Below, in pieces: positions 566 to 62,281 of a stretch of DNA of 64,000 nucleotides. How positions within the stretch are numbered: position 1 is the stretch's first letter; the number at the start of each line of letters is the position of its first letter. This DNA comes from Chaetoderma sp. LZ-2023a (taxonomy: Eukaryota; Mollusca; Caudofoveata; Chaetodermatida; Chaetodermatidae). The notes below the pieces were generated by a model. It searched no databases and was not told the origin of the DNA. It saw only the letters and a program-made list of their open reading frames with translations. The stretch covers positions 58,387,295-58,451,294 of the forward strand of contig CM067370.1 in the NCBI GenBank assembly GCA_034401795.1, read 5' to 3'. Both the position numbers and the translations under genes were made by a program.

Positions 566-1334
566 TGTTACCGCACGCCTCCAACCCACCATAGGGTTTT
601 TAGGCCAAAACAAAATGGCCGCCATGACAGCTAAGCCCTCTGATGAGCTCAAACAAAGAGCGAAACTTTATAAAGTCTGAATCTTAAACATTATCCTCCA
701 AACTAACAATGATTTGGCCTAATTGGAGAATATTAATTTGACAAAACGCCGGCCATCTTGACGGTTCCAGAGCCGCCAATAAGAACCGGCTCTGGAGCCG
801 ACAATCAACAGCTCTGCATTGCCATGCCAATCTCAACCAATCAGAACAGAGATATCCATTAGTATGACTAATTTGACCAATCAAACTCTACCAACAAAAT
901 ATAAAGGACCGTTTCCCAATGGTTCAGGCGAGAGGAGGCAGTAACGAGCAGAGTTGTGAAACCGACAATCCCAGGATCTCTTATCCGTTCGGCCAACTGA
1001 CAATCGCTAGAAACATAGACAATCTCATTCACTCCTTGTCGCCTCTCTCCACCCAGGAGTATAAATGGGTACTAGTGTAAAACTGAGGAAGTTACCAATA
1101 ATAGACTGAAATAAAACCAGCTTAGAATGGCGTGAATGGGACCTGGAATCAGGGACTCAATATACGCCAACCAAACCAATAACTTTTCGGTTGAGGCTAT
1201 TCAGACTCTGACTACAACACATAGCAGACGTCAACCACATCTTTTTTGAGAGCCAATCACCACCTACGTATTTATTAATATCTATATTATTTAACAGCCA
1301 TGATGGTGGCCCTGTTAACCTAACTCGGGTAACA
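566..1334 (+). mobile_element. candidate solo LTR or LTR-like promoter unit
   Basis: The unit is bounded by short inverted ends TGTTACC (566) and GGTAACA (1334). Inside, in order, are two YY1-like motifs (AAAATGGCCGCCAT at 612-625 and GGCCATCTTG at 751-760), two CCAAT boxes (836-844, 875-884), TATAAA at 900-905 and AATAAA at 1110-1115. That order resembles an LTR with promoter and poly(A) signal. No target duplication was found, and no internal region belonging to it is visible, so the assignment is tentative. A hammerhead-like motif lies in its 5' part. Confidence 0.3.
632..686 (+). ncRNA. hammerhead-ribozyme-like motif
   Basis: CTGATGA (640-646) is followed by a 4-bp stem II GCTC/GAGC (647-650, 658-661) with a 7-nt loop. 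Next come GAAA (662-665), a stem III palindrome formed from ACTTTATAAAGT (665-676), and the cleavage-site C at 677. All invariant core positions of the hammerhead consensus are present. Stem I is weak: only an outer TAAG/CTTA (632-635/683-686) pairs, with a CCCT/TGAAT internal loop. Animal hammerheads occur in Penelope-like elements and small retrozymes. This copy sits in an LTR-like unit. Confidence 0.45.
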
Positions 1335-14400: not shown

Positions 14401-17400
14401 GACACTTCGGCTATATGTAACACATCTTCTTGAAAAAAAATTGTGAGTGTAGGTTCAAAACTCTTCCAGATCTGTCCCGGACAAGAAAATTTTGATGAAT
14501 TTTAAGCTTTCAAGGGAGATAACTCTAGCGAATACGGGAGGATTTTGCCGAATCGAAATCATGACACTGTCTATAGGTAATATATCTGCTGAAAAAATTT
14601 TTTGAGTGTAGGTTCAACTCTTCGAGATCTGCTCCGGACAAGAATCAGACGGATGGACGGATGCATGGACGCACAGACGGACGGCGAGCGCCATCGCATA
14701 ATATGACCCCGCTTTGCGCGGGCGTATAAAAATCGGCCAAAATGGCCGATCGGCGTCCTTTGACCAAACTTGGATCCCTATGCCCTAAGGATGCTTCTTG
14801 CCAAATGTAATTGAAATCGACCCAATCATTCTCGAGAATACACAAAAACATACGACCACCTCCTCCCTGGTATTATGTCGGTCAAAGGTTTGCTAATGTA
14901 ATTCTATATAGGCTTCGTAATGGTTGTAGTAATTTAAATCGGAATCCACAAATCACTATCTCCTCCACTGCCCTCTTTTTAATGACCAAAGAGTCTCTCG
15001 CCAAAATCAGCTTGTCATAAACAATATCTCTATTGCCACACTGACAGCTAATCAACTTCTATACGGCATTAACAATGTCGACTTGGAAAAGAATATTACT
15101 ATATGTAATGCTGTATGTCAATATATAGTCAATAACAACCGCTTGAAGTAACATCCTATTTGTTAAATTCGCAACCATAAGTGCTAAATGCAAACAGCCC
15201 AACATGTAAAGCATGGTGAACACAGCACTAAGCGCTCCTCACCACCTTACTTTTCTCACTCTTGTCAGATTCCTAATTTATACACTGTTTCTCATATTCC
15301 CCTCTCCTCTCTTTTTGTCCGCCTTTCCCTAACTCCACCGCTGTTAATTCTTTTTATCTTGTTTGGCAATAAAATGTGTTGGGCATGATAAATCATTGCA
15401 CGGTGTAAAAAACCTGTCTAATATTTCCCCTATGAAAGCGGCACTATATTCGTAGTGCAAATAGGTAAGGGCTGATAACTGGTGGTTGACGTCATATCAG
15501 TTTCATTTTCGCAACACAGATATTTGATGCTGACATTAACATTGTGACCAAGTTTGGAATTAATCCACCCAGAAATAATATCACGTGCTGCCATTGTTGA
15601 GGATGAATGGACAGATGGATGGATGGACAGGCGGATGACAGACTGGGGGTCATTGCTATGCGTCAGATGCCTGACAAGCCAGTTGAGTTAATAAAACCAA
15701 TTTCAGCTTCAAAATCCATCAAATAAAAAATCCAATATCGCTGCCAAACACACATTTTGATTGGTCCACAGTGGCCATGTTTTTTATCTATCCACTTCCC
15801 ATAAACAAAATTTAATGGCCCTTAGTCCATAATTATATTCCCCAAATTTAGTCCCGATCTGTTCAACGGTTCTGCAGAAGTTGTTTTTGCGAAAACTAGG
15901 TCATCCAAGATGGCTGCAGTCCGTTGGCCAATCAAGTTCCTTTAAACAAACTTGGTTTAGCTCTTGCCCTATATGATATTTCATGAGTTTTGAATTGATC
16001 CACCAAGCGGGTTCGGAGATTTTTAGAGGTTTCTAAAAATTGTCCAAAATCCAAGATGGCTACCGGCCGAATTGGCTGATCGACTTCCTTTGAACAAACT
16101 TAGATCTCTATTCCCCAACGATGCTTCCTGCCAAATATAATTGAAATTGGCCCAGTGGCTCTTAAGAAGTTGTTTAAAGATAAAGTTGAAGGACGGACGG
16201 ATGACGGGCAGATGATGGATGGTCGCCATGGCATAAGCTCAATTGGCCATGTGAGCCAACAAGAGGCCCAAGGGTCTGTATCGCTCACCTGGACCACAGG
16301 CATCTAAACTAGAATGGTCATTAACAATAAGTAAAACTCTAATGAGTTGAGCAGACTTGTAACAAGAAAACAGAGGCCATGTTTCTTTATGTATCAACTT
16401 CTTTTAAACAAACTTTAATGGCCCTTAGTCATCAATATCATATAAATTTCGGCCCAATCCATTCAGTGGCTCCGGAGACGAAGTTGCTTTCATGAAAACC
16501 AGGCCATCCAAGATGGCCACACAACCATTTGGCAAATCAAGTTCCCTTGAGTAAACTTGGTTCAGCTCGTGCCCTAAATGATATTTTATGACTTTTGAAT
16601 CAATCGCTCAGTTTCGGCGAAGATTTTTAGACATTTCTAAAAATCAGCCAAAATCCAAGATGGCCACTGGACAAATTGGCTTCGTTTGAACAAACTTGAA
16701 TCTCTACAACCTAAGGATGCTTCCTGCCAAATATAATTGAAATTGGCCCAGTAGTTCTAGAAGACATTTTAAATTTCCCATTGCTTTAGTGTGGGTGTCT
16801 TTGGCAGGAAAATGATCCAAGATGGCTGCAAAATCGTTTATCCGACAGTTTCGAAAATTGCAAATTTGAGATCAGAATACCCAAAAACACATAAAACCAA
16901 TTTCATCCTCAAAATCCATCAAATAAAAAAATCCAATATGGCCACCAAACATGCTGTATTTTGATAGGCCAACTGCTGCCATGTTTTTTTACGTATCAAC
17001 TTTCCTTGAAAAAACTTTAATGACCCTTAGTCCCTAATCATATCTGCCAAATTTGGCCCAATCCCTTCAGCGGTTCTGGAGAAGTCGTTTTCGCTAAAAC
17101 TAGATCAACCAAAATGGCCGCCGAACCATTTGACCAATCAAGTTCGCTTGAACTAACTTGGTTCAGCTCTTGCCCTAGATCATATTTCATGGCATTTGCT
17201 TCAATCCACCAAGCGGTTTCAGAGATTTTTAGACATTTCTTAAAATCGGCCGAAATCCAAGATGGCCACCGGCAAAATTGGCTGACCGGCTTCCTTTGAC
17301 CAAACTTGGATCCCTATGCCCTAATGATACCTCCTGCCAAATATAATTAAAATCAGCCCAGTGGTTCTTGAGAAGTTGTTTAAAGAAAAAAATTGATGGC

Positions 17401-23400: not shown

Positions 23401-26400
23401 GTCAGAAACAACAGATTTAAGTCTGTAGGACGTCTCATACTCGTGTGCGAAACATATATATGTAAACATGAAACTGGATCCATAGATGGATCTTATTGTT
23501 TGCTGGAATATTAACTTCGAAACCAGTCCTGGATGTATCGTTCTTTATCCCGAAAAAAGTAATAGTTAATGAATTATCTGGTTTGAAATCTACATTGTCA
23601 AACGATAAAGTTATGCTATCAATTGACAGATTTTGTTTATTTAGAATCACACATTTTGGAGCCAAATCTGATGGGTGTGTCATACACACAAGCACTAGTA
23701 ACGTTATTGCTTTAAGGCGCAGGCGTTTTATAGGCAACACATCATTGGTGTCCCATGCACTAAACAACCGAACAAATGCCTCTATTGGCATCGGCTTCGA
23801 TTGTTTTGTAGGTTGGCTGGTACCAGATTTTGTTAAGCCCACAATGAGGCGCTTAATGTCTGCATTACGCATTGGAGAATGTTTACCTCATCTTTCGTAA
23901 AGACATGATATTGATGCCGCTGACGATTTAAGAATTGATTCAGGTCTTTGTGATTTTGACGCAATATGACAAAGAAAATCTGCTACAATATTATGATTTG
24001 TTTCATCTTTAAAATCAACATTTCTATCAACACAATACGAAATATAACTAGCCATGTGTCTATTATATGTATAAGAGTAGATTGAGCCCAACTTAATATG
24101 ACCGATTTTGTGGCTCTATGAGACCAACCAAAACGTTCTAATCTTTTCTCCCAGAAACTTTCCAAGCATATATCTTCTACTACTTGTTTTTAGAGGTATT
24201 GTCCTGTTTGACAATGGAAGCGAAATTGGTAAATCTATTGACATTTTCTTTAGTTTTTGAAACCACACTTGTCCCTCCCACCAATATCTATGATTGCAGC
24301 CACAGCCTCCCCCCCCCACCCCCCCCCCCCCCCCCCCCCCTGTTCCTCGACAGTCTCGAGTACACGTGGAAGGAGAGCAAATGGCGCATTTACATAATTG
24401 TTCAAGGTAGCCCAATCTGTTTGAGCTAATGCGTCGACTCCTGACATTCCAGGATCTCAGTATTGACTGTTGTACAGAGGCAACTGAGTTGTTACCAACG
24501 AAGTGAACCTGTCTATGTGGTGGGACCCCAAATTCTGTCCATATCTGAAAACAGTTTGGGGTGTAGCTACCATTCCTAAGTTGATGCAAGGCGTGAAAGT
24601 TGGTCGGCTTTCCAATTTTGTTCCCCTGAAAAATAGCTTGCCACCAAGGTGCAGTTCATTTTCATCGCATCTACGTGTATGGCCCATGCCACAAGGTCTA
24701 ACTCGAGGGATGACCCTTCCATACTGTTTATGAAAGCTACTGTTGTGATATTGTCTGACAATATTTGGACCGTTTTGCTTGCAAGAAATAGTTTTAAGGA
24801 CTTCAGTCCCAGTAACACGGCAAACAGTTCTCGGTAATTTGAATGTTTGTATGCTAGTCTGTGATTCCAGAAGCCTTGTGCTTCTTGTCCTGGAATCCAT
24901 GCACCCCACGCGATACTGGATGCATCTGTAACCATTTGAATATCTATCTGATTTCCGGATAAAACAATGCCGTTCCATTTTGAAAGAGAATCAACCCACC
25001 AGTTCAAGTCTATTCTGGAAGATTCATCAATAATTAACGTGTCCCATCAATGTCTTTTAGTATTGACCAAACGATACAAATTTCTTAGTACTAATTTAGC
25101 GGCCAAAATACATTTGTACATCGATACACATTGACCCGCTATCCATACTAAACCTCTAGCTGATATAGCACCCTTATTTAATGCACGTTTAAACGGAAAA
25201 TGCGTTGCTGGGGTATCTTAATAACCGTCTGAACCGCTGAAGTATCAATTAAATACCCAATAAACTCTTTACAGTGATCCGGTTCCAAAGACGATTTATG
25301 AAAATTAATTGTCCAGCCTAAAGTAGCTAAGACATCAAGTAAGTATTTCGTGTGCAATTAAATTTTACTTTCGACTGAAAACAATATAAAATCATCTACA
25401 TAGAGGACAATCCCAAGTCCATTCGCTTTAAAGAATGTAACAATAGGTCGCAAGATTTTTGTGAAAATATATGGGCTACAGTTATGTCCAAATGGCAACA
25501 CAGCCCATCTATAGTAAACAGACATATAATTAAAGCCTAAAAGTGTTCTGTGCTCTATATGTATAGGAACACGATGAAACCTGTTTTTAAGATCAGCAGT
25601 AATCATAGTCTTTTGGTTGTACAAAATTAATTACAGTGTCTATATCATCATATTTAAAGCTGGGTGGACTACAGAAATTATTGACATGTCGCAAGTTGCA
25701 AACTAACCCGAGTTCTCCAGATTTCTTTGGCACACATGAAATCATAGATACGCAAATCGTTTCTTTACTGCATAGTTCAATATGTCCATTTATCACCAGA
25801 TTAACAATTTCTTTATGTAAAAAGTGAATCTCTTTACTTGAAAACTTATTATTATCCTCCTCAAAACTATTAATGTTACCAATTACGGGGAATTTTACCC
25901 CTTGTTGAATCCAATCGATTACTTTATCTGACGCATTTATAGTTTTCCATATGTCAAGCTTAGCACAGAGGATTTTTCAATATCATTAAATGAACGACCA
26001 ACAACGAAATATAGAAAAATTTGTTCCAAAATATCATATTATTATATACTACAAACTTGTCTGTGTGCTAAGGGATGTTTTAATCCTCCTGATCTCTCAT
26101 CGGCCCCGGGTATTGCGGCCGAAATCTTGGTATGTTAGTATTTCTCGTGCTATGGAATACATCCCGAGAACCGCGACCACGATAATTTCCAGAAAATCTA
26201 TGATTGTAATTAGGCCGTACATTTTGTGGTTGTTGTGGTCTACCTATACTCGATAACTCAACCGTGATTCGAACATTTTTCAAACTCTGAGAGTCAAATC
26301 CAGAATTATGATGTTGTGGTGACCTAAATAATTGTGCCGTAGACGCGTCAAAACGACTTTTCATTAGCAATGCCGCGAACTTGTCCTGTAAATACCGAAT

Positions 26401-29400
26401 GTTCGCGGTTAACAGTTATTAATGGGTGGACATCAACATTTTCACTCTCATCAAACTTGCTTATAACTTTTATAGCCATTTCCACATACCGCCCGCAGTT
26501 CATAATAACATTCAATGTTTGCTGATCTTCTTTCTTTATTCCTCACCGGGTGTCATCTAGTTTTAGCGATGGCGGTAAAAGCACTTTGTTCACAGATGAT
26601 TTAATAATATTAAATTGTTCGTGAATCTCACCAAATTCGTCGACACCAGCTGTGCCCATATTAAAGTCAGAGACAGGGCCGAGTGCGCCTGCTTGGGCGC
26701 CGAAATCCAATGGATTTTAACGATGTTCCTGGTCTGGCAATTTGTTACAATCAGCGACTAGCCTCCCGTCGCTGAACACGTGGTGTGACCTACTTCTATT
26801 TTTGGTTATTTCTAAGCATTCTATGCTGTGGTTATCAACTTTAACTCATTTCTAACTTCACTGACACTACTATCAACTAATTCGACTCTTTCACTTGACT
26901 TTTTAACTTTATTGTCTTCTGTCGACATTCTGACCCCTTCTTGTGAAAGTGCACATAGAAAGAATGATATTAATGCGCACTACACTTAGTGCGCATACGT
27001 CATAAAATAGTTCGCATAACTACGAATAAAATCAACAAAAGACTTTTGTGAATGGATAAAATCACACCTCTGAGGGGATTACTGACCCCTATCAATAATA
27101 CTCATCCCTAGTGGTAATGTAAATATAGGCATACTAAGTTAGTATTACTATGTGAACTAAGTTCCTTAGAATAATTTGTTTGCATGTTGATTTATGTTAA
27201 ACAGCTACAATTTCTCACTTATTTTCAAAATATTGTGCATTCCTGAAATTTAGAGTTAAAGATATTAGGCTGATCTAGAAAAACACAGGCCATGAGGATA
27301 TCAAAGTTTTGTAGGCATCTTAAAAGCATGTTTATAAAGGACACCATGTGTCATAATACACAGGTGTCGTAATTGTCATTTAAGAATTAAACCTTTCAAT
27401 GAGACATCTGAAAAATCTGGTTTACTATTTTGATATCAATTTGACTCAAAGCTGTTGCTGTTTAAGGCACCTTTGATTGCTAATTACGCCTTTGACTTCA
27501 AAAAACAAATACCATAAATCACATGTACATTCTTAATAAATATGTGTTTAATATTTTGAAACTAATTTGACTAGAGCAGTAAGGCAACTTCCACTCAAAT
27601 AAATTTTACGTAACCATTTGAACCTGAAAGAGCAAATATGAAAAAGCACATACATTCTCCCAATTATCCTGTTTAATATTTTGATGTGCTTGCTGTATGA
27701 CACAGTTGTTGCCTTAGATAGCAACTGCTTCCAGTCAAATGTGTCATGCAGCAAGCACTTCCAGTCAAATTAATGTTAATAAGCCTTTGAGTTTGAGCCC
27801 AAAGAATAAATAAAAAAAATCACATGTGCATTTTTAACAAATATTATTATTTTGAAAATAATTTGACTCGAGCAGGAAGGCAGCAACAACTTCCTTTCAA
27901 TTTAATGTAAAGAAAATTATTTTAGTAGGTATGATATGTGATTTGTTATACATTGTGTACCTTCCTAATGCAGTGGGGTTTACTGTGAAGAATTAAGAAG
28001 AGATATTAATTTATAGTGTCAGCATCAAACAGACCTTCAATTTTTGTATGTAATTGATAAAGTAATTGAAATTGCCAATTACAAATTACTTTATCAATTA
28101 CATACAAAAAAATTCAAGTGTATTTAATTACAATTCAATTACAATTACTTTTTTAGCAACTCAATTACAATCAATTACTTGAAAAATTTAATTAAATTAC
28201 AGCCAATTACAATTACAAATTACAATTACCCCATGTCTGGTTGACAGTAATTACAACTCTCTAACCAATGAGAAAGAAAGGTCAAACGCCCTGAACTCTC
28301 CCTGATCTGGATACGCCCATGCTTGGTTCATGAGAATATTAATGTTCCTGCTTTTCTGAATGAAGATTTTCAAGTCAGACAACAGTGCCATATTATCAAA
28401 TAAATTATTACGCTCTTGAGTGCTCCCTATTCAAGCTATGATTGGCAAAGTATATGCATGTGTAGACAATTAAACAAAATAGATGCACAAATTCAAGTTT
28501 CAACTTTTGTCCAGACCCACCTATTTGGAAAAATATTACAATGTTTGCTTCTTAATTCAGCTTCAACCACACAGACCCTATATTAGTGAAACCACCGAGG
28601 TGACCAAATTATCTTCCATTAAATGAGCTGGTACTTAAAGGAAAGGATCAGGGAACTAACATATGCTCTTGAATGACAGCGCTATATAATAATCAACCTA
28701 CAGCCACCAGTAAATAAGAGACCCAAGGGCCTATGGCGCTCACCTGGAACATTGGCATTTAAACCATTTGCATTTAAATAGACATGATGGGTGATTTTTG
28801 GAAAATCCAAGATGGCTATCAGAAAAAATTGACCAATCAAGATTCTCGCTTAATATGTTGAAACCTGCCATCATAGGATCACTCCACCCAGGTTTTGTTG
28901 AAATTGGGCTATTGATTGAAGGAGTACTTTTTAAATGGTTCCGGAAAACTTTCCGAAAATCAGAGATGGCTGCCAAAACATTGACCTATCAAAATTCTGA
29001 ATAGAATTTCTAGAGGATACGACAATAGGATCTTTCCAGCCAAATTTGGTTGAAATTGCTCAAGAAATTAATGAGGAGTAGCATTTTATACAAATTCCCA
29101 TTTTTCGGAAAATCCAAGATGGCCACCAGAAAAATTGACCAATCAAAATTCTGTATACACGTTCTGAAAGCTATCAGCCTAGTATCCCTCCAGCAAATTC
29201 TGGTTGAAATTGCTCAAGCAGTTAATGAGTAGCGTTTTAAACGATTTCTCGCCATTTTTCGGAAAATTCAGGATGGCCGCTGAAAAATGCACCAATCAAA
29301 ATTCTGTATAAAAGGTCTGAAGCATACTACACTAGGGTTCTTCCATCGGAGTTTGATTGAAATTGGCCCAGTGGTTATCGAGAAGTAGGCTTTAAGTGAT

Positions 29401-32400
29401 CTCCAGAAATTTTCAGAAAATCCAAGATGGTCGCCGGCCAAATTGGCCAATCAGCTCAGTTTGACCAAACTTGGATCCATATGCCCTAAGGATGCTTCCT
29501 GCCAAATATAATTGAAATCAGCTCAGTGGTTCTCGAGAAGACATTTAAAATTTCCCAACTTTAGTACATGTATGGAAGTATTGGGTGGGAAAACAATCCA
29601 AGAAAGCTGCCAAACCATTTATCCGACAGTTTCCAAAGTGGCAAATTTCAAATCAGCATACCCAAAAACATATATAAAACTTTCAGCTCCAAAATCCATC
29701 AAATGTATGGGAGTATTGGGTGGGAAAACAACCCAAGAAGGCTGCCAAACCATTTATCCGACAGTTTCCAAAGTGGCAAATTTCAAATCAGCATACCCAA
29801 AAAACTATATAAAACTTTCAGCTTCAAAATCCATCAAATAAAAAAATCCAAAATGGCCACCAAACACGCTACATTTTGATTGGTCCAGGGCGGCCATGTT
29901 TTTTTGTACTTATCAACTTCCCTTGAACTAGTTTTAATGGCCCTTAGGCCCTAATCATCTGCCAAATTTTGGCCCGATCCCTTCAGCGGTTCTGGAGAAG
30001 TCATTTTTGGGAAAACTAGATCATCCAAGATGGCCGACAAACTATTTGGCCAATCAAGTTTTCTTGAACAACCTTGGTTCAGCTCGGGCCCTAAATAATA
30101 TTTCATGAGTTTTGAATCAATCCCCAAGTAGTTTTGGAGACTTTAAAAGAAGTTTTCTAAAATCTTCTAAAATCCATGACGGCCACTGGCCAAATTGGTC
30201 GATCAGTTTCGGTTGAACACACTTCGATTCCTAAGGATGCTTCCTACCAAATATAAGTGAAATCATCCCTGCGGTTCTCGAGAAGTCGTTTAAAGAAAAG
30301 GTTGACGGACAACGGACACACGACGGATGGTCGCCACAATATAAGCTCACTTGGCCTCAGGCCAGGTGAGCTAAAAACAGAAAGAAATCAGAATAATTTG
30401 AAACCAGAAATGTGGTTGCAATGTAACCACAGAACTCGACTTTACGACTTTGCAATGAACTATGAAGCTTGATTTTAAACATAAAATAACTAAGGCCTTA
30501 TCAACGAGAGGCCCAAGGGCCCATAACGCTAACCTGGACCATTTACATTTAAATACCAGTAGATATGATGGCCACCAAAGAAATTGACCAATCAAAATTC
30601 TCCGTTAATATGTTGAAGCCTACCGCCAGAGGATCATTCCACCCAAGTTTCATTGAAATTGGCCCAATAATTAAGGGGTAGCATTTTAAATGGTTCTGGA
30701 AAGTTTTCCAAAAATCCAAATGGCCACCAAAAATTTACCAACCAAAATTCTGAATATATGTTCTAGAGCCTACTACTATAGAATCCTTCCAGCCAAATTT
30801 GGATAAAATCCACCACGCGGTTATTTCGACAATTTCCGATAAATTTTTCATAAGATTTATGATTTTCCACCCAGAAATTTACCCATTAAAATTCTGAATA
30901 GATGTTCTGGAGCCTACCGTGATAGGGTCTGTCTAGCCAACTACATGAACTAGGGTTTAAATCTTTCAAGCTGTTAATTATGAGTAGCGTTTAATCAATT
31001 TCTGGTAAATTTTTCATTAAAAAAAGCTTGACCGATCAAAATTCTGTATATATGTTCTGAAGCATATCCCCATAAGGTTCTTCCAGCCAAAGCAGGTTTA
31101 AATTTGCCGAGCAGTTAATGAGGAGTAGCATATTGACAATTTGCGGTAAATTTTTCATAAAATCTAAGGTTTTCACCAAAAAACTTGACCAATCAAAATT
31201 CTGTATATATTTTCTGAAGCATAGCCCCATAAGGTCATTCCAGCCAAAGTAAGTTGAAATCTGCCAAGTGGTTAATTAGAAGTAGCTTATTGACTATTTG
31301 TGGTAAATTTTTCATAAAATCTCAGGTTTTCACCAAAAAACTTAACCAATCAAAATTCTGTATATGATTTCTAAAGCATAGCCCCATAAGGTCATTCCAG
31401 CCAAAGTAAGTTGAAATCTGCCAAGTGGTTAATAAGGAATAGAGTTTTGACAATTTCTGCCAAATCTTTCATAAAATCAAAGATTTTCACACAAATTAGC
31501 TGACCAATCAAAATTCTGTATAGCTCTTCTGAAACAGAAAGCATTAGGGTCCTTCCAGTGAAGTTAGGTTGAAATTCACCAAGTGTTTAATGAGTAGTGT
31601 TTTGACAAATTCCGGTAAATTTGTAATAAAATGTGATTTTAAACCAAAAAATTTACCAATCAAAATTCTGTATACACATTCTGAAGCCTATGCCCATAGG
31701 GTCCATGCAGGCAAATTAGGTTGAAAACCGCCACACGGATAATGAGAAGCATTTTTAAACAAAGGTTGACAGATGGATGACGGATGACAGATGGTCGTCA
31801 TGCATCTCAGTGACCTTGACCGTTGACATTTGACCAAAACATCATTGTGTGATGTTGTGTTATTGTAAGGAGGCATGTGTCCAAGTTTGGGTTCACTATG
31901 ATTAACCAAACCCGAGATATAAACAGTAAAGTTGAGCTAAACGGAAAAATAACCTTGAAAAATAGCCTCTGACATTTTGACACCAAGGTCATCATGGAAT
32001 GTCGTATCAATATAAGGAAACATGTGCCCCAGTTTGGGTCCAGTATGATTAACCAAACCCGAAATATAAACAGAAAGGTTGAGCTAAACACAAATTGGAC
32101 AACAATGTCACAGCCGCCGTGCAGAATATCACAATAGCTCGTTTTACTTCATAAAGTCGACTAAAAAGCAGCTAAATACCATTTATGTCACTGTTGAGAC
32201 AACAAATTAGTGACAGAGCTGGACCTATGCGCTCTGGTGAATGCTGAGCGAATAAATAATACCCGCTACAGCCGGTCATATAAGCTGTTATATTTGCATT
32301 AAGCCACTGCGTCCTACGGGTAAAATATTGTCTAGTTTTAAAACATTTGACTGAAATTTGGTGAAAACCTTAGACAGGGTCTACATTCAGTCACACAAAT

Positions 32401-44497: not shown

Positions 44498-45961
44498 CAG
44501 ACCTGCCAACCCCTACGGATTGTCCGTAGTTTGTACGGAAATAGCGTCCAAACTACGCATGCGAGTTGCAGGTTGCGAGTGAAAATATGGAAATTAAAAA
44601 TTGTGCAATTACGGTAATACGGACAAGGTGGTAAAATTACGAATTTCTGTTTGTGAGGCTATAAAGACGGCGACCGCTTATCAAAACACGTCGGCTTCCA
44701 TTATGTCAAGATGTTTTAATTGCTCAATCTAGCTGACATTTGAGAACAGCCCATAGAGTTAAAATGGCAGTAGAGAGCTTATGCTCATACCTTTATTTCG
44801 GCATATTATATACATGTAGCCTCCAAAACGGACCCAATTCTCTTTTGACAATTGGAAGAGCATTTGAGTAGAGGCAAATTGATAGATTTTTATGAGAAAT
44901 GAAAAGGTATTGGCTATATTAATCGGACACTACCTATTGGCTATATTAATCACAACTACGTAATAGAATTAGCATACACGCTCTATGGCTATTCTATATC
45001 TATGAAACAGCCTGCCAAGATTCTCTAATCTTGTTAATCAGCATTTTAAGCCTTATTACATCGTTGGATTAATAGAATGCGAAAGTTACCACTATGCAAG
45101 AATCCTGGAAGTTTGTTTGTTTATGATGGCTACAGATATGCAATTCAACTATATAAATATACCGATGTGAATCGGAAATCATTCATTCAAAGCGTGAGAA
45201 AATCAAAATAATTTATTTTTTATTTTAATATAATATGTCTTTAACGAAATATTGTAACATGAATTTCCTGGTAATATATATTTCCATGATCGCGGTATGA
45301 GATTTTGTGCACAGTGGATTTCAGTCTTTGTTTTCTGATTTTGGTATCTAAATATGGAAAATAATCACCAAACTTTGTGGAAGCGCTCAGCGCAACCTGA
45401 TAATGCTGCAATGCCAATAAAAAAAGTTCAAAAGACATGTGTATGCACGAGACATGTACATATGCACATTGTAAAAAAACACACAAATTCTATCAAAAAA
45501 TGTAATGGTAAATTAACTCACACAATACTAGATGTCTATATTTACATTTTACCACAGGAATGACTGGCTCGATAACAGTCAATTGTTGAACCCTTTAATG
45601 ACTAAATTTCTTCGAAAAATTAAAACAATTACTTATTGAATTTCCATTTGCAGGCCAAGAGAAGACTATTTTTGAAAATTTACCACTGTAATGACTGGCT
45701 CGGTTGCCAAGCCAGTCATTTCAGTGGTAAAATTTCAAAAATAGTCTTCTCTTGGCCTACAAATGGACATTACGCAAACCTACTACAGAGGCCGGTTTTG
45801 TCACGAAAGGGTTAAAATCATGTTTGCTTCTTTTTCAATCACTACTGAAAGGTTCCTCAAACTACTGAAAATCCCCTACTGAAAGAGTGTGTGAAACTAC
45901 TGAAAATCATGGTTTTTCACCTGAAACTACTGATTGCTTGAACTGGGGGTTGGCAGCTCTG
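44498..45961. mobile_element. hAT-like element with CAGACCTGCCAACC ends
   Basis: Ends CAGACCTGCCAACCCC and GGGGTTGGCAGCTCTG, target duplication (G)CCTTATG on both sides (44490-44497 and 45961-45968). The matching place in hAT copy 1 is empty. A fragment of the same family is at 54072-54186. It holds a piggyBac-type palindrome. No transposase frame. Confidence 0.75.
45591..45811. mobile_element. palindromic piggyBac-type MITE nested in the 44498 element
   Basis: Ends CCCTTTAATGAC and GTCACGAAAGGG; TTAA at 45812-45815 and a changed TGAA at 45587-45590. Perfect-looking arms AAGAGAAGACTATTTTTGAA / TTCAAAAATAGTCTTCTCTT. A partial second arm lies just before it (45545-45580). Confidence 0.8.
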
Positions 45962-46767
45962 CCTTATGCAGCAACTGCTCCCAGTCAAATTAGTTTCAAA
46001 ATATTAAACAGGATATTTATTAAAATGCATGTGCTTTTTCATATTTGTTCTTTCAAATTAAGTAGAATTTTATTTTAAATTATGAATCTCATTTTGCATA
46101 CAAGTACATGCAAATACGGAAACAACTGTCAAGAAAGCTATTGAAATTTGAACATAATTTTGCTGGAAATCAAAGGTGCCTTAGACAGCAATAGCTTTCA
46201 GTAAAATTGCTATCAAAATAGTAAGCCAAATTTTTCAGTGATCTCATTAAAAAGTTTAATTCCTAAATGACAATTATGACACCTGTCTATAAAGGACTGT
46301 TTGTCTATAGTCCCAATGGTGTCCTTTATAAACATGCTTAAATGTATTTTTTTAAATGCCATGTCCAGTGTTTTTCTATTGAGCCCAGTATGCTGACCTC
46401 CTAACCCTTTTAACTCTAAATTTCAGGAAAGTACACTGACATTTCTGATGAGAGTTACACAATATTTTGAAAATAAGTTACGGTGGAAATTGTAGCTGTT
46501 TAACGCATCACATTCCTGCAGTCCAATTATTTTAAAGAACTTAGTTCATATTGTTAGCAATACTAACTTAGTATGCCTATATGTAATTCACCACTGGAAA
46601 GAGTTATTGTTATGGTTAACTCCACCAGTGGTCATCGATCTGCTGGAAGGTGTGATTTTATCCATTCACAAAAGTCTTGATGATTTTATTTAAGGTCTCC
46701 AAGACACCCTTTCAACTATACAGATCTGAGATATTACAAATTCAACCTACAATGTAAGAATTATTAA

Positions 46768-47904: not shown

Positions 47905-49523
47905 ACAAGAGGCCCAAGGGCCTGTGGCGCTCACCTGGACCATTGGCATTTAAACCATTTGCTTTTAAATACACATGGATGATTTTCAGAAAATCCAAGA
48001 TGGCAACCAAAAAATTGACCAATCAAGACTCGTTTAATATGTTGAAGCCTACCGTCATAGGATCATTCCATCCAACTTTTGTTGAAATCGGGTTATTGCT
48101 TGAAGGAGTACCCTTTTTAAATGGTTCCGGAAAACTGTCAGAAAATCAGAGATTGCTGCCAAAACATTGACCTATCGAAATTCAAAATATACTTTCTAGA
48201 GGCTATGACAATAGGATCCTTCGAGCCAAAATTGGTTGAAATTGCCCAAGCGATTAATGAGGAGTAGCATCTTATATGAATTCCCATTTAGCGGAAAAGC
48301 CAAGTGGCCAACATAAAAAACAAGCTGTCAAAATTCTGTATATAAGTTCTGAAGCATACGGGCCTAGGGTTTCTTCCAGCTGAGTTTGGTTGAAATCGGC
48401 TAAGCGGTTAATGAGGAGTAGCCTCATTAACTGATTTCCGATAAATGGGCCTAGGGTTCTTCCAGCTGAGTTTGGTTGAAATCGGCCAAGCGGTTAATGA
48501 GGAGTAGCCGTTTAACTGATTTCCCAAAATATTCAGAAAATCCAAAATGGTCAGCAGAAAAATTGAGCAATAAAAATTCTATATGCAACTTCTAAAGCCT
48601 ACTGTCCTAGGCTCGTTCCAGCCAGTCTGGTTGAAATCGCTCAAGTAGTTAATGAGTAGACGATGTTCAGCCATTTTTTGGAAAATTCAAGATGGCCACC
48701 GAATAAATTGACCAATCAAAATTCTATATAAAACCTCTGAAGCATAGCACTTTAGCGTTTTTCCAGCCGAGCATGCTTGAACTCGTTAAAGAGGCATCCT
48801 TTCAACTGATTTCCCAAAATTTCCAGAAAATCCAAGATGGCCGCCAGAAAAATGCACCGATCAAAATTCTGTATACAAGTTCTGAAATCTACCAGCTTAT
48901 TATCCTTCCAGCCAAGTCTACTTGAAATTACTCAAGCAGTTAATGAGGAGTAACGTTTTAAACAATTTCCCGCCATATTTCAGAAAATCCAAGAGGATTG
49001 CCGGAAAAATCGACCAATCAAAATTCTGTGTATATGTTCAGAGGCATACTAGGATAACATTCTTCCATTCAAGTTTGATTGAAATTGGCCCTGTGGTTAT
49101 CGAGGAGTAGGCTTTTAAGTGATTTCCGGAAATTTTCAGAAAATCCAAAATGGTCAGCAGAAAAATTGACCAATCAAAATTCTGTATAAAACTTTTGAAA
49201 GCTACCAGCCTAGTATACTTCTAGCCAAGTCTGGTTGAAATTGCTCAAACAGTTAATGGGAGTAGCGTTTTAAAGGAATTCCCGCCATTTTTTGAAAAAT
49301 TCAAGATGACCACCGAAAAAATTGACCAATCAAAATTCTGTAGAGAAGTTCTGAAGGATTCTATGCTAGGGACCTTCCAGCCAAATTATGTTGATATCTG
49401 CCTAGCGGTTAATGAGGAGTAGCGTTTTAAGCACAAGTTGACGGATGGACAGACGGATGCCGGACGACGGATGGTCGCCATGCCATAAGCTCACTTGACT
49501 ATTCTGGCCAGGTCAGCTAATAA
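47905..49523 (+). mobile_element. pearl/HINE-like element inside hAT copy 2, ATGGC-CCAAT core
   Basis: Complete layout: ACAAGAGGCCCAAGGGCCTG, CGCTCACCTGG, units with the ATGGC-type motif at about 47999, 48151, 48304, 48546, 48691, 48836, 48995, 49149 and 49305 (mostly 145-157 bp apart), a microsatellite near 49440-49470, and the tail TTCTGGCCAGGTCAGCTAATAA. A 62-bp segment (GGGCCTAGGGTTCTTCCAGC onward) is duplicated at about 48360 and 48447. Confidence 0.75.
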
Positions 49524-50737: not shown

Positions 50738-53160
50738 TTGACTCAGGACCGCTTAGTCTCGATGGATGTCAGTCGGATACGACCCCAAATGGATAATAGG
50801 TCCGCCATCGCTACTGTCTTTGGTCCCTATCTGGACTCAAAATCCAAGAGATCCAGATCAACGGTTGTGTATCGAGGAGGAAATAAAATCCCTCATGCAA
50901 AAAGGAGCAGTTCAACCAGCACAAAATTGGCCGGGCTTGTACTCAACCATGTTTCTAGTACCAGAAAGCACTGGAGGGTGGAGACCATTTCTCAACCTCA
51001 AGCCATTGAACAAGTTCATAGACACACCAACTTTCAAGATGGAAACAATCAGAACGGTGTTGGCGAAAGGAATATGGACAATGTCAATAGATCTGAAGGA
51101 TGCTTATTTATACATCCCCATGGCGAGAAGTTTTTGTCGGTTCCTGAGATTCGCATTTCAGGGCTGCCAGTGGGAATTCAAAGTTCTTCCCTTTGGAATT
51201 TTGATAGCTCCTCGGGTCTTCACCACAGTGGTCCTTGCTACTACAGCATACCTCTGCAGGACAAACGCCAGTCCACACATAGCAGTCCACACCTACATAG
51301 ATGACTGGCTGCTAAAAGCACACAATCGGGAAATTCAATGAACAAATCTGGATAGTTTTAAAAACTCTCACACATCTAGGCTGGATAATCAACTTTCAGA
51401 AATCAGAGCTGACTCCATCCCAGAAGTTAGAGATACTCATCTCAGTCATACAGTCAGTGTGCAACCAGGGCTTCACGGTATTAGAAAAATGAATACTGGT
51501 ATTGATATCAATTTCTATACCGGCATAACTTTAATATCGGTATTGCGACTGGCAAAATAGAGTGAGGTTTGGGTAGTATGATAACTTATTCAAAGTATAT
51601 CAGTGCTCCTGAAATAGTTGCTGAACTTTACAAATTTCCACAATAAAACCAAGAAATTACATGAATCCTGATATTAAATGACCATCTCCCAAATATACTT
51701 GCCTAATGAGACTGTGAACAGCTAAACCTGTTGATATTTGACTGACAAAGATCAATGTTATGAGTCAAAAACCTTGGATAATCACTGTAAACCTACGTTT
51801 TACTAATTTTCCGGACAATGTGTATTTATATACGCCAGAATAATAAATAAGCATTCCACGCAGACCTGTGCTAAATAGGATGAATTTGCAATTGGACAAA
51901 AACACCAGGAATCGTAGAAATCGTCGCGCAGGCGTAAAACGTAGCCATTATACCACTTGCTAAATAGACCAGCATATATGCTGTGAATACATAGTCCTAC
52001 GCTGGCTCCCGTTATATAGTAGCTTGTATCGATCGATATCTGGCAACACGCCAACATATGAAGGGAATAGATCAAGCAGGGATTGAGAAATTTTTCTCGT
52101 ACCGTTTGGCGGTCACTACAAAGTTGTACAATTCTACAAAATCTCTATCTAACCAGGCTGTAGAAATTGAAAATATTGACACAAAATATTCGTTTGAAAT
52201 TCTGATTTTGTAGCAAACAACAGGCTGAAATTATAAAATGTTAGCGCAAGAAGATATATATTAGACATTTTTAACCATCCCATGTCCTATGAGGTTAATT
52301 AAAATAAGTTTTATTCTATTTTTTGCGAGAAGTGCATTCTTATAAGTAGCCAATTTCGTGGCAGTAATCGTTAATTTATCAATTTCTATAGCCGCCAAAC
52401 AACATTTTGACAGATCCAGATAAATAAGAAAATGTTAAAGTGTGTTCCTTAAATACAGGTAAAATATCATTCTCCTATACGAAGAGCAGTCGCTTATCTG
52501 ATTAAACAGATATACTATTGAATTTTGCTAATGGAAAGCAGATTATCTGCCTAGTAAACAGAATGTCATACCGGTTTTATGTTATATCTCAATATTTCCG
52601 TATCAGCAAAATCATATCGGTATGACTAATGGTATGGCCATAATACCGGTATTTGATATAATATCGGTATATCGTAAAGCCCTATGTGCAACAGTCGCTA
52701 TGTGCTGGCACGGGTTTACTTGAGAATGCTGGGGTTGATTGTTTCTCTGGAACCAGTCATTTCACAGGCGGCCTATCCAGTTATTTCTCATGACACAGTT
52801 GACCCAGAGTTCAGGACACGAAAGGTGTCAGTGTTGGAACCTCTTATTAACCACCTCCGATGATGGATGAAAAGAGAAAATCTCCTGGCGGGGATGATGC
52901 TCACCGCTCCCTATCCTCAAATAATGATGTACATGGATGCATCAATGGAGGGAAGAGGACCTTGCCTGGAAGAAGCTACAGTAGCACGCCACTCTTGCTT
53001 GTGGAAGGCCAAGCGACCTCCCACAGGTCCAGCTAGGGAGAAAAAGACCAGGACCTGACATAGGCAGTAGACTAGACGGGCACCATGTCATGCAGTCCAA
53101 AGCCAGGTTTATTTCATGGCTCTTTGGACCGAGACGGCTTGGCATGATAAAGAAGCAGTT
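50738..53160 (+). mobile_element. DIRS-type fossil fragment, reverse-transcriptase part, plus strand
   Basis: Broken. 50766-51341 carries a reverse transcriptase with a YIDD-type catalytic box, and 52693-53060 an RNase H-like start. It is split by a hAT-type insertion. It abuts the minus-strand DIRS part that ends at 50735, so two fragments lie head to head, or one element was rearranged; the sequence alone does not decide. Confidence 0.75.
51466..52684. mobile_element. non-autonomous hAT element with perfect 8-bp target duplication
   Basis: Ends CAGGGCTTCACGGTAT and ATATCGTAAAGCCCTA, flanked by TGTGCAAC on both sides (51458-51465, 52685-52692). Subterminal regions are rich in ATACCGGTAT/AATATCGGTA. 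1219 bp without an open transposase frame. The exact duplication suggests a fairly recent insertion. Confidence 0.85.
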
Positions 53161-54932: not shown

Positions 54933-55799
54933 ATTATCCCTATAATATACATATCAAATTATTTTTTAAATACTTTAAAACCAATTTGACTGCAAATTAT
55001 TGCAGCCTAATGCAGCAAGAACCTCCACATAAATGAATTTAAATTATTTTGAATCTAATTTCACTGTGTGCATTAATATATAACAAATCCAACATTATAT
55101 AGGAAGATTTAAAGATTAACTATTTCAAGAACAAATCCCTGAAGAACTACATTTTGTAATACTTATTCTGTTGATATTTTGAAATTAATTTGACGGGAAG
55201 CTGTTGCTGCCTAAGCCAGCAATGGCTTCCAGTCAAATTAGTTTCAAAATATTCAACTGACAACAGTTTTCTTGTATGGTTGCCTTGAAAAAGAGATATC
55301 TGGAATTCAATGGTGAAAGGGTTAAGAGCACTAGCTATCATCATCATCATGGCATCATATGCACAACTGTAACTAGACAAAGAGCATAATATGTATATAA
55401 ACCTATCAAATCAAAATATTTTAAAACCGTATTGCAATATAACCAATATTGGGGGATATATTGTCTGTAATAATTGTATTTTATGTAATATTTGTAAATC
55501 TTACATGTATCATGCTTAAATGAAGAAATAAAACTCAAACTGACAAGTCATTGTATTGTCTATGTCCAAGCAACATAAAATGACCCAAAACAATGTAAGA
55601 AATAATATGAGGTTAGTTTCCTTCTTAAGTTGGACGGCCAAATTAAAGCTCTTTTGTGATTGGAGGCATACCACTGAATTTTATCTCAGACTGGAAGGAG
55701 ATCTCCCAAATAAAAACAGGTTGTGCAACCTCGCAAATGCCAATATCACAAATTAATAATAAATATGTACAGAATATCATGTTTTTAAAACAATTTGAG
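54933..55799. repeat. spacer with small palindromes; best copy 55170-55257
   Basis: GTTGATATTTTGAAATTAAT...GGAAGCTGTTGCTGCC pairs with GCAATGGCTTCCAGTCAAAT...TTTCAAAATATTCAAC, an 88-bp near-perfect hairpin. Related inverted pairs are at 17905, 18580, 19464, 33874, 37600, 46768 and 54965. No gene. Confidence 0.7.
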
Positions 55800-57489: not shown

Positions 57490-58788
57490 GTGCCACCATC
57501 TGATGACCCCACCTTCCAAAAGGAGTGGGAAAAGCACATCAAGGAATCCAGTCTACACTTGACTGGACATTTATTAGATTTACTATGAACTCGTGCAACC
57601 ACGCTCACTGACCGAGTTAAACGAGTGAAGGCAGGATTCAAAGCCGCAGCTGAAACCAGTGACATAGTACTTGAGGCAGAGAGAGCAGTCCAATCCACCA
57701 TATTGAAAACTAGGGACAGGTCAACCAGCCCGCACAAGCGCCGACAAATTGAAGGAGCAGTCCAACCTAAACAGAGGACTCAGAAGAGAAGGCCGGAGAA
57801 GTTCAACAAAAACGAGTTCCGCAACATACAGGACAAGGCACATAAGAACGACAAGAACTTTGACACCTTAAACAAAGTTCTAAATCTGCTGAAACAGTCT
57901 GAACGCTAACTGTCATGAACTACATTCAGACAGACAGCAATCAAGACTGTAATTTTTTAAACTATAAAAATAAAAATTATGTCAATAAAACAAAACAAAC
58001 AAAAAACTTGCGAAAGAGAGCTCTCTGAGATCTGCTTTGTTAAAAACCTGTCCGAGAAAGAACTGTCAGGACCTTGTACATGTACTATTAGGGCAGGGAT
58101 TCAGTCCCACAGTAATCGAACCAAACATGGGCAGATTACACTCTGACCGTAATAAATTCTTCAGGAGGCTACGCCTCAAACTACATTTCGAACACCCTCC
58201 CTTCCCATGGGGCAATGATGAAAGCAATGTATCAGTGACGGAAACACCGCCACCTGTCTCCACATTCACAGAAAATCTAATTAGAAAATTCAAACCTCGT
58301 AGCCAATGGACACCACCACCTGCCAATGACCATGTTTTAGACACCTTTATCGAAAAAGTCAAACATGATCTGAATAAAGTAAAACACAGGCGAAATTTCA
58401 GATGCAACATCTCCCAGGCTAATAGAAAACTTACTCAAATATTAGCAATCGATAAATCCATTGTGATTAAGAAAGCCGACAAAGGACAGGCTACAGTCAT
58501 ACTAAACTCTTATGACTATAACGCTGAAGCCCTAAAACAACTCAAAGACACACGCTACTACGAATTGGTGACAGAAAATCTGACCACCTAACATGCTGAA
58601 AGGGTAGAGACAGCCATCACTGGACTGGTTCTGAGAGGGGAGATAACTGATGACACTGCTAATGGCCTAAGAGTAGATAACCCACACACATCTCTTACCA
58701 AAAATACACAAAAATACTACACCCACACCGGGCAGACCAATTATTAGCAGTAATGGTTGTCCTACTGAATACATCAGTAGCTTTATAG

Positions 58789-59970
58789 ATGAGCATCTCA
58801 AAGTTCATCTCCAAGACATTCCATCATACTGACTTCATCAATAAACTAGAAACTTTCGGTAAATTACAGCAACACGCTATTCTAGTCACCATGGACGTTA
58901 CATCACTATATACAAACATCCCACACAATGAGGGACTAAAAGCCGCCGCACAACATATCAGAGAATTTGGTATGCCTGGCGACCTTACACCAAGGTCACT
59001 CTTGGAACTGCTATCCATTGTATTAAGATGTAATAATTTTGAATTCAATGACAAACAATACCTACAAACGGGTGGGACAGCTATGGGCACTAAAGTGGCA
59101 CCAACTTATGCTATCATCTTCATGGTCCAACTGGAGAAAAGGCTTCTGCTTCATTCTCTCCATAGACTGGCCCTCTATCTCCGATACATCGACGACATAT
59201 TCATGATCTGGACATCTGGCCAACAAAAACTTGATGAATTCATCCACTACATGAATACATCTCATCATTCCATCAAATTTACAGCAGAGCAGTCCACAAC
59301 TAAGGTCAGCTTTCTGGACACATACGTATACATTGATACTGATCGCTCACTATGCTTCGATTTACAATGTAAACCGACAGACACACACGGCTACCTACAT
59401 TACCAATCAGCACACCCGCAGTCCACTAAAAACTCCAGCCCATATGGACAATTTCTTAGATTACGCAGAATCTGCAGCAAGGAATTAGATTTCCACAAAC
59501 ACGCCCATGAACTCATTGGTTACTATCAAAGGAGAGACTACCCTCCCGATCTTCTTCTAAACAGCTATCAGAAAACATGCGCACGTTCAAGGCTCGATCT
59601 ACTAATACCCAAAGTCAAAAACACAGAGATAAACACACGTATCCCATGCATAATGGACTTTCACACTCAAAGCCATAAACCTAGCAAAATCATCAAAAAG
59701 TACTGGGAACTACTAGATAGTAGTCCCAAATGTAGAAGCACATTCCCAACTCCACCAATGTTTGGCTACAGAAAGAATCCAACTTTCAGAGACACACTTG
59801 TCACCGCCAAATTTGAGTTTCCCGCCAAATCAGGCCTCGAAGAAAAAACTTTCCAAAACCCAATTTATCCATGCACAAGAAAAAATTTCTTCCGCAAGAA
59901 TATGGACAATAAACGTGAATTCACTAGCACACACTCTGGTCTAAAATACAGATGTAAGGTCAAAACATAA
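58789..59970 (+). pseudogene. Penelope-like reverse transcriptase, 393-codon open stretch
   Basis: Longest open frame in the window. It contains DVTSLYTNIPHNEGL (RT motif 3), GGTAMGTKVAPTYA (motif 4), YLRYIDDIFMIW (catalytic motif 5), and VSFLDTYVYI with LQCKPTDTHGYLHYQSAHP (motifs 6-7), all typical of Penelope-like RT. The thumb region and a linker with QNPIYPCTRKNFF follow. The start of the stretch is not a natural start codon context. The protein N-terminus lies upstream in other frames. Confidence 0.9.
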
Positions 59971-60289
59971 TGCGATACACGCAATGTTATTTACCTACTC
60001 ACATGCACACATTGTCACAAACAGTAAATGGGGGAAACAAAACGTGAGTTCCACGTACGAGTGAAAGAACATTTAAGGGATATTAAAAAATACAAAGACA
60101 CCCCCCGTTGCAAAACATTTTAATTTACCCAATCATACTGGACAAAATGTGTCCTATAAAATTATACAAGTTCTCCCTCACGATCCTGAGGACATTGATA
60201 AAACTCATATCAGGAAAGAACAAGAGAAGTACTGGATGCACCAACTGCACACATTGGACCCCATAGGGATTAATCCTGCAGATTGGTGA
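59970..60289 (+). pseudogene. GIY-YIG endonuclease domain of the Penelope-like element
   Basis: NVIYLLTCTHC, then GETKREFHVRVKEHLRDIKK, KHFNLPNHTGQNVSYKIIQV and QEKYWMHQLHTLDPIGINP. The second half of GIY-YIG (normally YVGET) is altered by an in-frame stop, and one frame change follows. CxxC next to the nuclease is usual in this group. Confidence 0.8.
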
Positions 60290-61500
60290 TTCCAAAATCT
60301 GAGTTGTTCCTTTAAACTTTAAAACTTGATAAGGATAGTAGCTTAGAATAAATCAGCCGGGACATAATACATTGTTAATAATAAACAAAGGGGTGATTAT
60401 GATGTCATATCTCCAAAGGAGAAAATCAGTATTTGACCCATCATCCAGGTGTAAGACGAATTGGATTCAACACTCATGAACATAATATCATTAGTGATAA
60501 ATAAATTAACTACCTATGCACAACCATCAGAGAAAACAAAAGAAAAAATTTTGGCAGACATTTTGTAAAAGTTTCAAAAACATTAGTGTGCCATTCTTCG
60601 TAACTCTAGAATACCTGAACCTTTAGCATAGGCATACTACCATCTCAGACCCTCTTGAGTAGACCACCATTTCACCAAGCCTCTCCACCATAATACTATT
60701 GGGACCACGGGGCAGAGTGAGAAGCTCTACTCCTTATGGGAGCGTCAAGCCACTCTGGGCATAGATTTAAGAACACAAAGTAAGGGAACAATGGTGGAGA
60801 GAATTATATCACAACTGTGTACCATATTCATAACAGGAACGTGTGGAAACAAAAACAAAATTTGATTAGAAATCTAAGGCGCCAAAATAATATTTTACCA
60901 GTTTAAAAGGTGCGAATCTTGTCTAAATTGCATCACGGAAACACATAACAATACGCATTAACAGCAAAATTTAGACAAAAATATAATTGAATGCAGCAGA
61001 TGGCTTGGTCCCGATGTGGCCTCTGGCAATTTCGCTTGTTCAGATAACATTCAATCACTAAATTATAATCAAGCATTGAGCAACAGAAAACACAAAAATT
61101 AGCGTCAAAATAAAGTTGCATGTGATTTGGCCAATAAACTCGAAAAAGGAAGCGATAGCCTGTGCATGGGTGAGGCTGGGGCTGGCAACTGACTCCCTGC
61201 TCGGAAACACCACCCAACTTTTTTAATCTGAGCTTTATTGAGTGAATGGCGATATTTAGAAATATCACAATCAGTGTTACTGTGTTAGGGAGTTAAGTAT
61301 ACTCTTGACGTGAAATGGCCTGTTGGTGATAACCAAAGGCGGAGATTACGGTAGATTGCTGGCGAGAGTAGGCAGCTCCTCTAACAATCTCCTCATTTAT
61401 GCTCCTCCACCACGGTGACCACCCGGTCCACTCCCCCAAAGTTAGATTACTGGATCCGCACCTGGGCTTCTTTACCTGACAGAATGAAAACATTCAGATC
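60290..61500. other. no gene recognised; probable 3' tail of the Penelope-like element
   Basis: Intermediate-AT sequence. Near 60660-60790 ACCACCATTTCACCAAGCC and a CTCCACCATAATACT / AATGGTGGAGAG inverted pair. No frame with family features. Confidence 0.35.

Positions 61501-62198: not shown

Positions 62199-62281
<83 letters not shown>
62199..62281. repeat. (TTA)n microsatellite, about 27 units
   Basis: Uninterrupted TTA repeats within the LINE 3' region; probably expanded from the LINE tail. The poly-Tyr frame through it is not a gene. Confidence 0.95.

Follow-up and report, generated by a model that had tools for sequence, protein, structure and literature searches.

The 64,000-nucleotide stretch of DNA analysed here (referred to below as the window) contains on its plus strand, at positions 640-677, every conserved nucleotide of the hammerhead core in type I order (CTGATGA GCTC AAACAAA GAGC GAAA CTTTATAAAG TC). 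The core nucleotides C3 to A9 correspond to CTGATGA (640-646) and are followed by stem II (647-661), in which GCTC (647-650) and GAGC (658-661) form four base pairs around the 7-nt loop AAACAAA. Then come GAAA (662-665), corresponding to G12 to A15.1, the palindrome CTTTATAAAG (666-675), which makes up a stem III of 3-4 bp, and T676 and C677, corresponding to U16.1 and C17; an intact hammerhead would be cut after 677. The cleavage triplet is GUC. The letters agree at every position with the core definition published in PMC3088659 (C3 U4 G5 A6 N7 G8 A9, G12 A13 A14 A15.1, U16.1 H17); furthermore, N10.1-N11.1 at the base of stem II is a G-C pair, and A665 and U676 provide the A15.1-U16.1 pair. 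The hammerhead-typical U7, G10.1-C11.1 and C15.2-G16.2 are present as well. An earlier reading of this DNA made without database searches (the sequence-only reading) had listed CTGATGA, a 4-bp stem II with a 7-nt loop, GAAA, a self-complementary stem III and the cleavage-site C, and all of them are indeed found at this site.

Stem I is absent. Its expected arms are the strand preceding the core (632-639, TAAGCCCT) and the strand beyond the cut site (678-685, TGAATCTT). AAGCCCT (633-639), at the position of the 5' strand, is unpaired with 678-684 as a helix: the core-adjacent pair 1.1-2.1 is a U-U mispair (U639/U678), and in the register of the stem there are pairs at 1.2, 1.5 (G-U) and 1.7, with 1.3, 1.4, 1.6 and 1.8 unpaired. 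This gives pairing at three of the eight positions of 678-685, none of it contiguous with the core. The sequence-only reading had called stem I weak, which is correct for the poor pairing but too mild for a stem with a mispair beside the core; its limits, 632-686, match by eye a helix of 4 bp (UAAG/CUUA) that follows an internal loop of 4x5. In the hammerhead curation described in PMC3088659, hits mispaired next to the core were rejected, and by published criteria the sequence at 640-677 is not a hammerhead ribozyme. A working ribozyme at this position is not supported, given this mispair and the lack of an Rfam match at the gathering cut-offs.

How often such a motif arises by chance was estimated for a loose version that called for the core and UH, four or more base pairs in stem II, three or more in stem III and short loops, with stem I left free. 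When the window was shuffled 14,564 times with its dinucleotides preserved, 55 of the shuffles contained it (0.0038 per window), and a first-order simulation gave 679 such motifs in 23.04 Gb, again 0.0038 per 64-kb window, both strands included. The sequence-only reading, with its estimate of "well below one in a thousand", thus overstated the rarity of the motif that it listed, for which about 0.004 per window is expected. When U7, G10.1-C11.1 and C15.2-G16.2 were added, no motif was left in the 23.04 Gb simulated, with criteria that were chosen after the site had been seen. These figures bear on the main rival explanation, namely that core, stem II and stem III came together by accident in an unrelated sequence that has no function, which we regard as rather unlikely. 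The expectation of about 0.004 gains weight in its favour if many windows were screened, and PMC3088659 points out that a large database will contain accidental matches to the consensus; the rarity of the hammerhead-typical pairs speaks against it, even if they were added afterwards.

A search of the window with Rfam gave no match at the gathering cut-offs. With open thresholds, Hammerhead_HH9 (RF02275) aligned to 640-677 with 24.8 bits, as compared with a cut-off of 52. The E-value was 0.00064 in 501 bases and 0.082 in 64 kb; because these values count 4227 families, E for HH9 alone in 64 kb is about 2e-5. By bit score, the match was tenth of the 15 in the 64-kb list, under microRNA-model matches to inverted repeats. 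The covariance-model check proposed in the sequence-only reading thus gave nothing at the cut-offs and a sub-threshold HH9 alignment at 640-677. Note that the gathering cut-off is not decisive, because complete hammerhead sites fail it, too. In 18 of 159 listed loci, 13 matches to hammerhead-clan families were obtained at E up to 0.3, and two of the 13 reached the cut-off (L077, 40 for a cut-off of 34; L068, 38 for 37), while six loci with a complete site according to our classifier (L002, L082, L089, L094, L109, L112) had no hammerhead row at all.

We also built a model, R1, from 28 viral type I sites (two of the first 30 were misaligned and dropped). With filters off, its best hit in the window was 632-685 with 25.8 bits (E 3.9e-5, a rough value), and the next one had 12.6 bits; this gap of 13 bits argues against chance. 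R1 is partly circular, however, since its members were fetched by a pattern taken from the 640-677 core. Applied to 32 further loci chosen from the 159 listed, it gave 26 hits of at least 34 bits. Two complete type I sites scored about as the window does or lower (L089, 25.9 bits; L005, 23.4 bits), type III sites reached 11-26 bits, and sites without full stems 12.5 (L007), 16.0 (L046), 17.0 (L004), 17.4 (L087) and 24.7 bits (L072). The last of these is an unconvincing hammerhead (stems of 6 and 1 bp) that comes close to the window, a point in favour of chance. It follows from the scores of the natural sites that 25.8 bits alone cannot separate a relic from a lucky match. The model scores do show a hammerhead resemblance of 640-677 that extends beyond the core letters.

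As a control, patterns derived from the core were sought in viral contigs (2 loci; with looser arms, at least 120 loci) and in prokaryote genomes (37 loci). Counting each site in which all 4 of 4 stem II positions pair, and identical contexts once, gave 178 sites among the matches listed (2 viral, 43 prokaryote and 133 from the looser-arm viral set). The count leaves out sites whose stem II does not pair (among the first 80 looser-arm viral loci there were 6, of which 2 had both stems) and the prokaryote locus L035, which yielded no row. The classifier allowed G-U pairs and took the better of the type I and type III layouts. Both other stems had at least 3 bp in 162 of the 178 sites among the matches listed (2, 40 and 120 in the three sets), and in 11 (0, 1 and 10) the shorter stem had 2 bp; the remaining five are L004, L007, L072, L087 and L129. 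The core together with a paired stem II is therefore a strong sign of a hammerhead, and for the same reason a site without stem I stands out. In the window, the best layout had 1 bp in each stem. Stem I of less than 2 bp was seen in three of the 178 sites among the matches listed (L004, L007, L087), and it is these three that the window resembles; at least L004 and L007 look like chance, as the rival explanation would have it. The site at 640-677 thus looks like a member of a small chance-like class, with the reservation that the control is viral and prokaryotic and decayed animal copies may differ. Among the prokaryote sites (L003-L039), 37 of 43 can be laid out as type III hammerheads in which neither stem is shorter than 3 bp; many of the prokaryote type III sites belong to Patescibacteria and resemble one another in the loop of stem I, and there are contigs with two or three of them.

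On balance, we consider it somewhat probable that 640-677 is a hammerhead-derived relic that is inactive as it stands, an assessment in which the rate of stem-I-less relics had to be guessed; chance comes next as the main rival. Descent is favoured by the presence of the whole core together with both stem II and stem III, by the R1 and HH9 values given above and by the natural-site control, where 162 of the 178 listed sites with core and paired stem II were complete hammerheads. Type I hammerhead repeats are abundant in some invertebrates, with about 5000 copies in a mussel according to PMC7229834. The relic is preferred over chance because the hammerhead-typical pairs make chance rare and hammerhead repeats are common in some invertebrates. 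Counted on the other side are the lack of a second copy or a target-site repeat in the window, and the three of 178 listed natural sites without a 2-bp stem I, at least two of which (L004 and L007) are chance-like. In its stability, the fold of 594-735 is unremarkable (z -0.78; matched by 46 of 200 shuffles), and an ordinary fold, together with the missing stem I and the absence of a gathering-level Rfam match, is also what chance would produce.

On the relic reading, a type I hammerhead would have kept its ribozyme side (core, stems II and III and the GUC site) and lost the pairing of stem I. We infer a junction adjoining the core, such as truncation or rearrangement would leave in the copy of a short retroelement; scattered point mutation fits less well, since neither the core nor stems II and III show any change. 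The RNA of an intact copy would form a three-way junction and cleave itself after C677; the copy at 640-677 would be unable to hold the strand beyond the cut site in the active centre and would thus be inactive in cis.

A possible partner for the 5' strand of stem I lies upstream. AGGGTTT (593-599, plus strand) can form 7 bp with 633-639 in the stem I register, and the helix A593GGGTTT599/A633AGCCCT639, which also occurs in the predicted fold, begins exactly at 1.1-2.1; with 677 joined to 593, it would provide the strand that stem I lacks. The core is further enclosed by an inverted repeat with 12 of 13 positions matching (left arm 600-612, right arm 710-722, plus strand); of 1200 random positions 20 have one as good, and of 600 mononucleotide shuffles none. 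The segment 593-677 (85 nt) might represent a single monomer released by hammerhead cleavage and copied into DNA, with a cut site at either end, which we hold to be very improbable. In a circle or tandem of 593-677 the hammerhead would be complete, with the 7-bp stem I 593-599/633-639, and the linear DNA copy would not cut in cis. The exact start of the helix at 1.1-2.1 is suggestive, as only 0.57% of 6000 random 60-nt stretches do as well for the 633-639 arm, and the circle is predicted to hold all three stems at -11.6 kcal/mol, as compared with -13.9 kcal/mol for the best fold. However, the helix was noticed afterwards, for the same arm 7 bp are reached in 1.2% of cases at 100 nt and in 6.1% at 400 nt, and 7 bp within 60 nt occur at 6.0% of random window positions and at 4 of the 94 natural type I sites listed. 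Moreover, no flanking repeat of at least 4 nt was found around 593-677, the window holds no tandem or second copy, the inverted repeat 600-612/710-722 crosses the supposed end, and 85 nt is less than the 150-450 bp of the animal repeats described in PMC7229834. If the proposal were true, 593-677 would be smaller than those hammerhead repeats and would indicate that cut monomers are copied back into DNA; a cut-to-cut copy would bear on whether hammerhead cleavage products template retrotransposition. A type III layout using 593-599/633-639 as stem I was also considered by eye and rejected, as it needs U16.1 at A591 and has no stem III.

The missing strand might also come from elsewhere, so that 640-677 would be a working hammerhead with an unusual stem I, completed by a remote, permuted or trans strand or by dimerization via the palindromic stem III. 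There are precedents, as newt and viroid hammerheads act as dimers (PMC6155905), for which the palindrome CTTTATAAAG would be suited, and permuted hammerheads, including non-circular permutations, are described in PMC10085705. In the dimers described in PMC6155905, however, helix III is lengthened and stem I is not replaced, and a plus strand search found segments fitting both arms at 15466, 60781 and 62157, the nearest being about 14.8 kb off. This makes a working ribozyme of this kind highly improbable. A scan of the window for other hammerheads found none on either strand; it tolerated one core mismatch and called for 12 or more pairs in total, with a minimum of 4 bp in stem I, 3 bp in stem II and, in stem III, 1 bp for type I or 3 bp for type III. 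The scan for the loose motif, in which stem I is left free, gave the site at 640 and one poor site at 46445. One lookalike, a CTGATGA at 57500 near the start of a reverse transcriptase-bearing element (CTGATGACCCCAC...GTGGGAAAAG, 57500-57545, plus strand), was discarded: it reads by eye as protein in one frame, its stem II does not start at the core, and it failed the scans.

The sequence-only reading had placed the core beside an LTR-like promoter, in the 5' part of an LTR-like unit, a position reminiscent of retrozymes and Penelope LTRs. Putative promoter-like boxes are present on the plus strand at 837-907 (CCAATCAGA, 837-845; CCAATCAAA, 877-885; AAAATATAAAGG, 896-907). CCAAT-like and TATA-like boxes are thus there, but the LTR is not supported. 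An 18-nt inverted repeat, TTGACGGTTCCAGAGCCG/CGGCTCTGGAGCCGACAA, lies at 758-804 between the core and these boxes. In LTR retrozymes the hammerhead lies in paired LTRs accompanied by a PBS and a PPT. The second copy of 401-1400 that paired LTRs would require was not found within the window, where the closest match elsewhere is 20 nt long (E 0.19); a solo LTR would be compatible with this. An open search for LTR ends (TG..CA with a 4-6-nt flanking repeat) gave one unconvincing pair, 625..1296, with a repeat of 4 nt, and for an element ending at 677 the only target-site repeat was one 7-mer, TCTTAAA, at 682 and 1869.

Far downstream, an ORF at 58789-59970 (plus strand; element 57500-60300) encodes a reverse transcriptase with a profile match to RVT_1 (E 4.4e-10), which we take to be Penelope-like from its motifs; at 60000-60300 no family match was obtained and a GIY-YIG domain was not confirmed. 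It is the nearest ORF of this kind, about 58 kb away from the core. Plus strand ORFs of at least 90 aa are lacking before 3328, and no PLE ORF lies beside 640-677. The PLE hammerhead studied in PMC11167929 straddles the pLTR-ORF junction, and in the window no site was found at such a junction, nor did any pass the scan that asks for 4 bp or more in stem I and allows one core mismatch. Animal type I hammerhead repeats, as described in PMC7229834, have no LTRs and occur in tandem with a length of 150-450 bp; a tandem array over 594-735 is absent from the window, and so are ribozyme-bearing tandem repeats of about 150-450 bp. Hence, although the boxes and the distant reverse transcriptase ORF could be cited for it, a hammerhead belonging to an LTR-like retrozyme or a Penelope pLTR is the least probable of the readings considered, and the link to an LTR-like unit is not supported, given the LTR-less animal repeats, the want of a second LTR copy in the window and the distance to the candidate Penelope-like enzyme.

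The window as a whole is repeat-rich and contains several pieces of reverse transcriptase genes, with further RVT_1 pieces at 25358-25630 (minus strand) and 50757-51341 (plus strand). Repeat motifs suggest that the host is a mollusc. Diverged, mutually related tandem repeats with a period near 154-157 bp are found at 28794-31733 and 48360-49430. A near-perfect hairpin with 65-nt arms (92% complementary, 3 nt apart) is present at 45639-45771, and a related element recurs in the window. The long inverted repeats at 28044-28107 and 55173-55255, which had sub-cut-off scores with microRNA models, look like small transposon hairpins. A (TAT)n microsatellite (27.7 copies, 100% matches) is located at 62199-62281.

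If 640-677 is a relic, it would be a footprint of hammerhead retroelements in the host genome, where intact relatives may exist; alone, it changes little, and the natural-site control with viral and prokaryote contigs is of wider use than the site itself. The fetched viral and prokaryote hammerheads of types I and III share the core with the window and, except for the looser-arm viral set, the stem II arms as well; in 162 of the 178 listed, unlike in the window, neither of the other two stems is shorter than 3 bp. The core and stem II arms of HH9 likewise align to 640-677, but the alignment covers only positions 19-54 of the 77 in the model and leaves stem I unmatched. PLE minimal hammerheads have the same type I core (PMC11167929, PMC6155905); these minimal forms are said in PMC6155905 to lack helix III, whereas in 640-677 stem III pairs and stem I does not. 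The type I hammerheads of animal non-LTR retrozymes described in PMC7229834 differ from 640-677 in their paired stem I and their tandem repeats of 150-450 bp, and they share with it the order of the elements, the core, a short stem III and a GC content below 50%. The sequence at 640-677 is thus probably one more hammerhead-like remnant, standing outside the family of working hammerheads.
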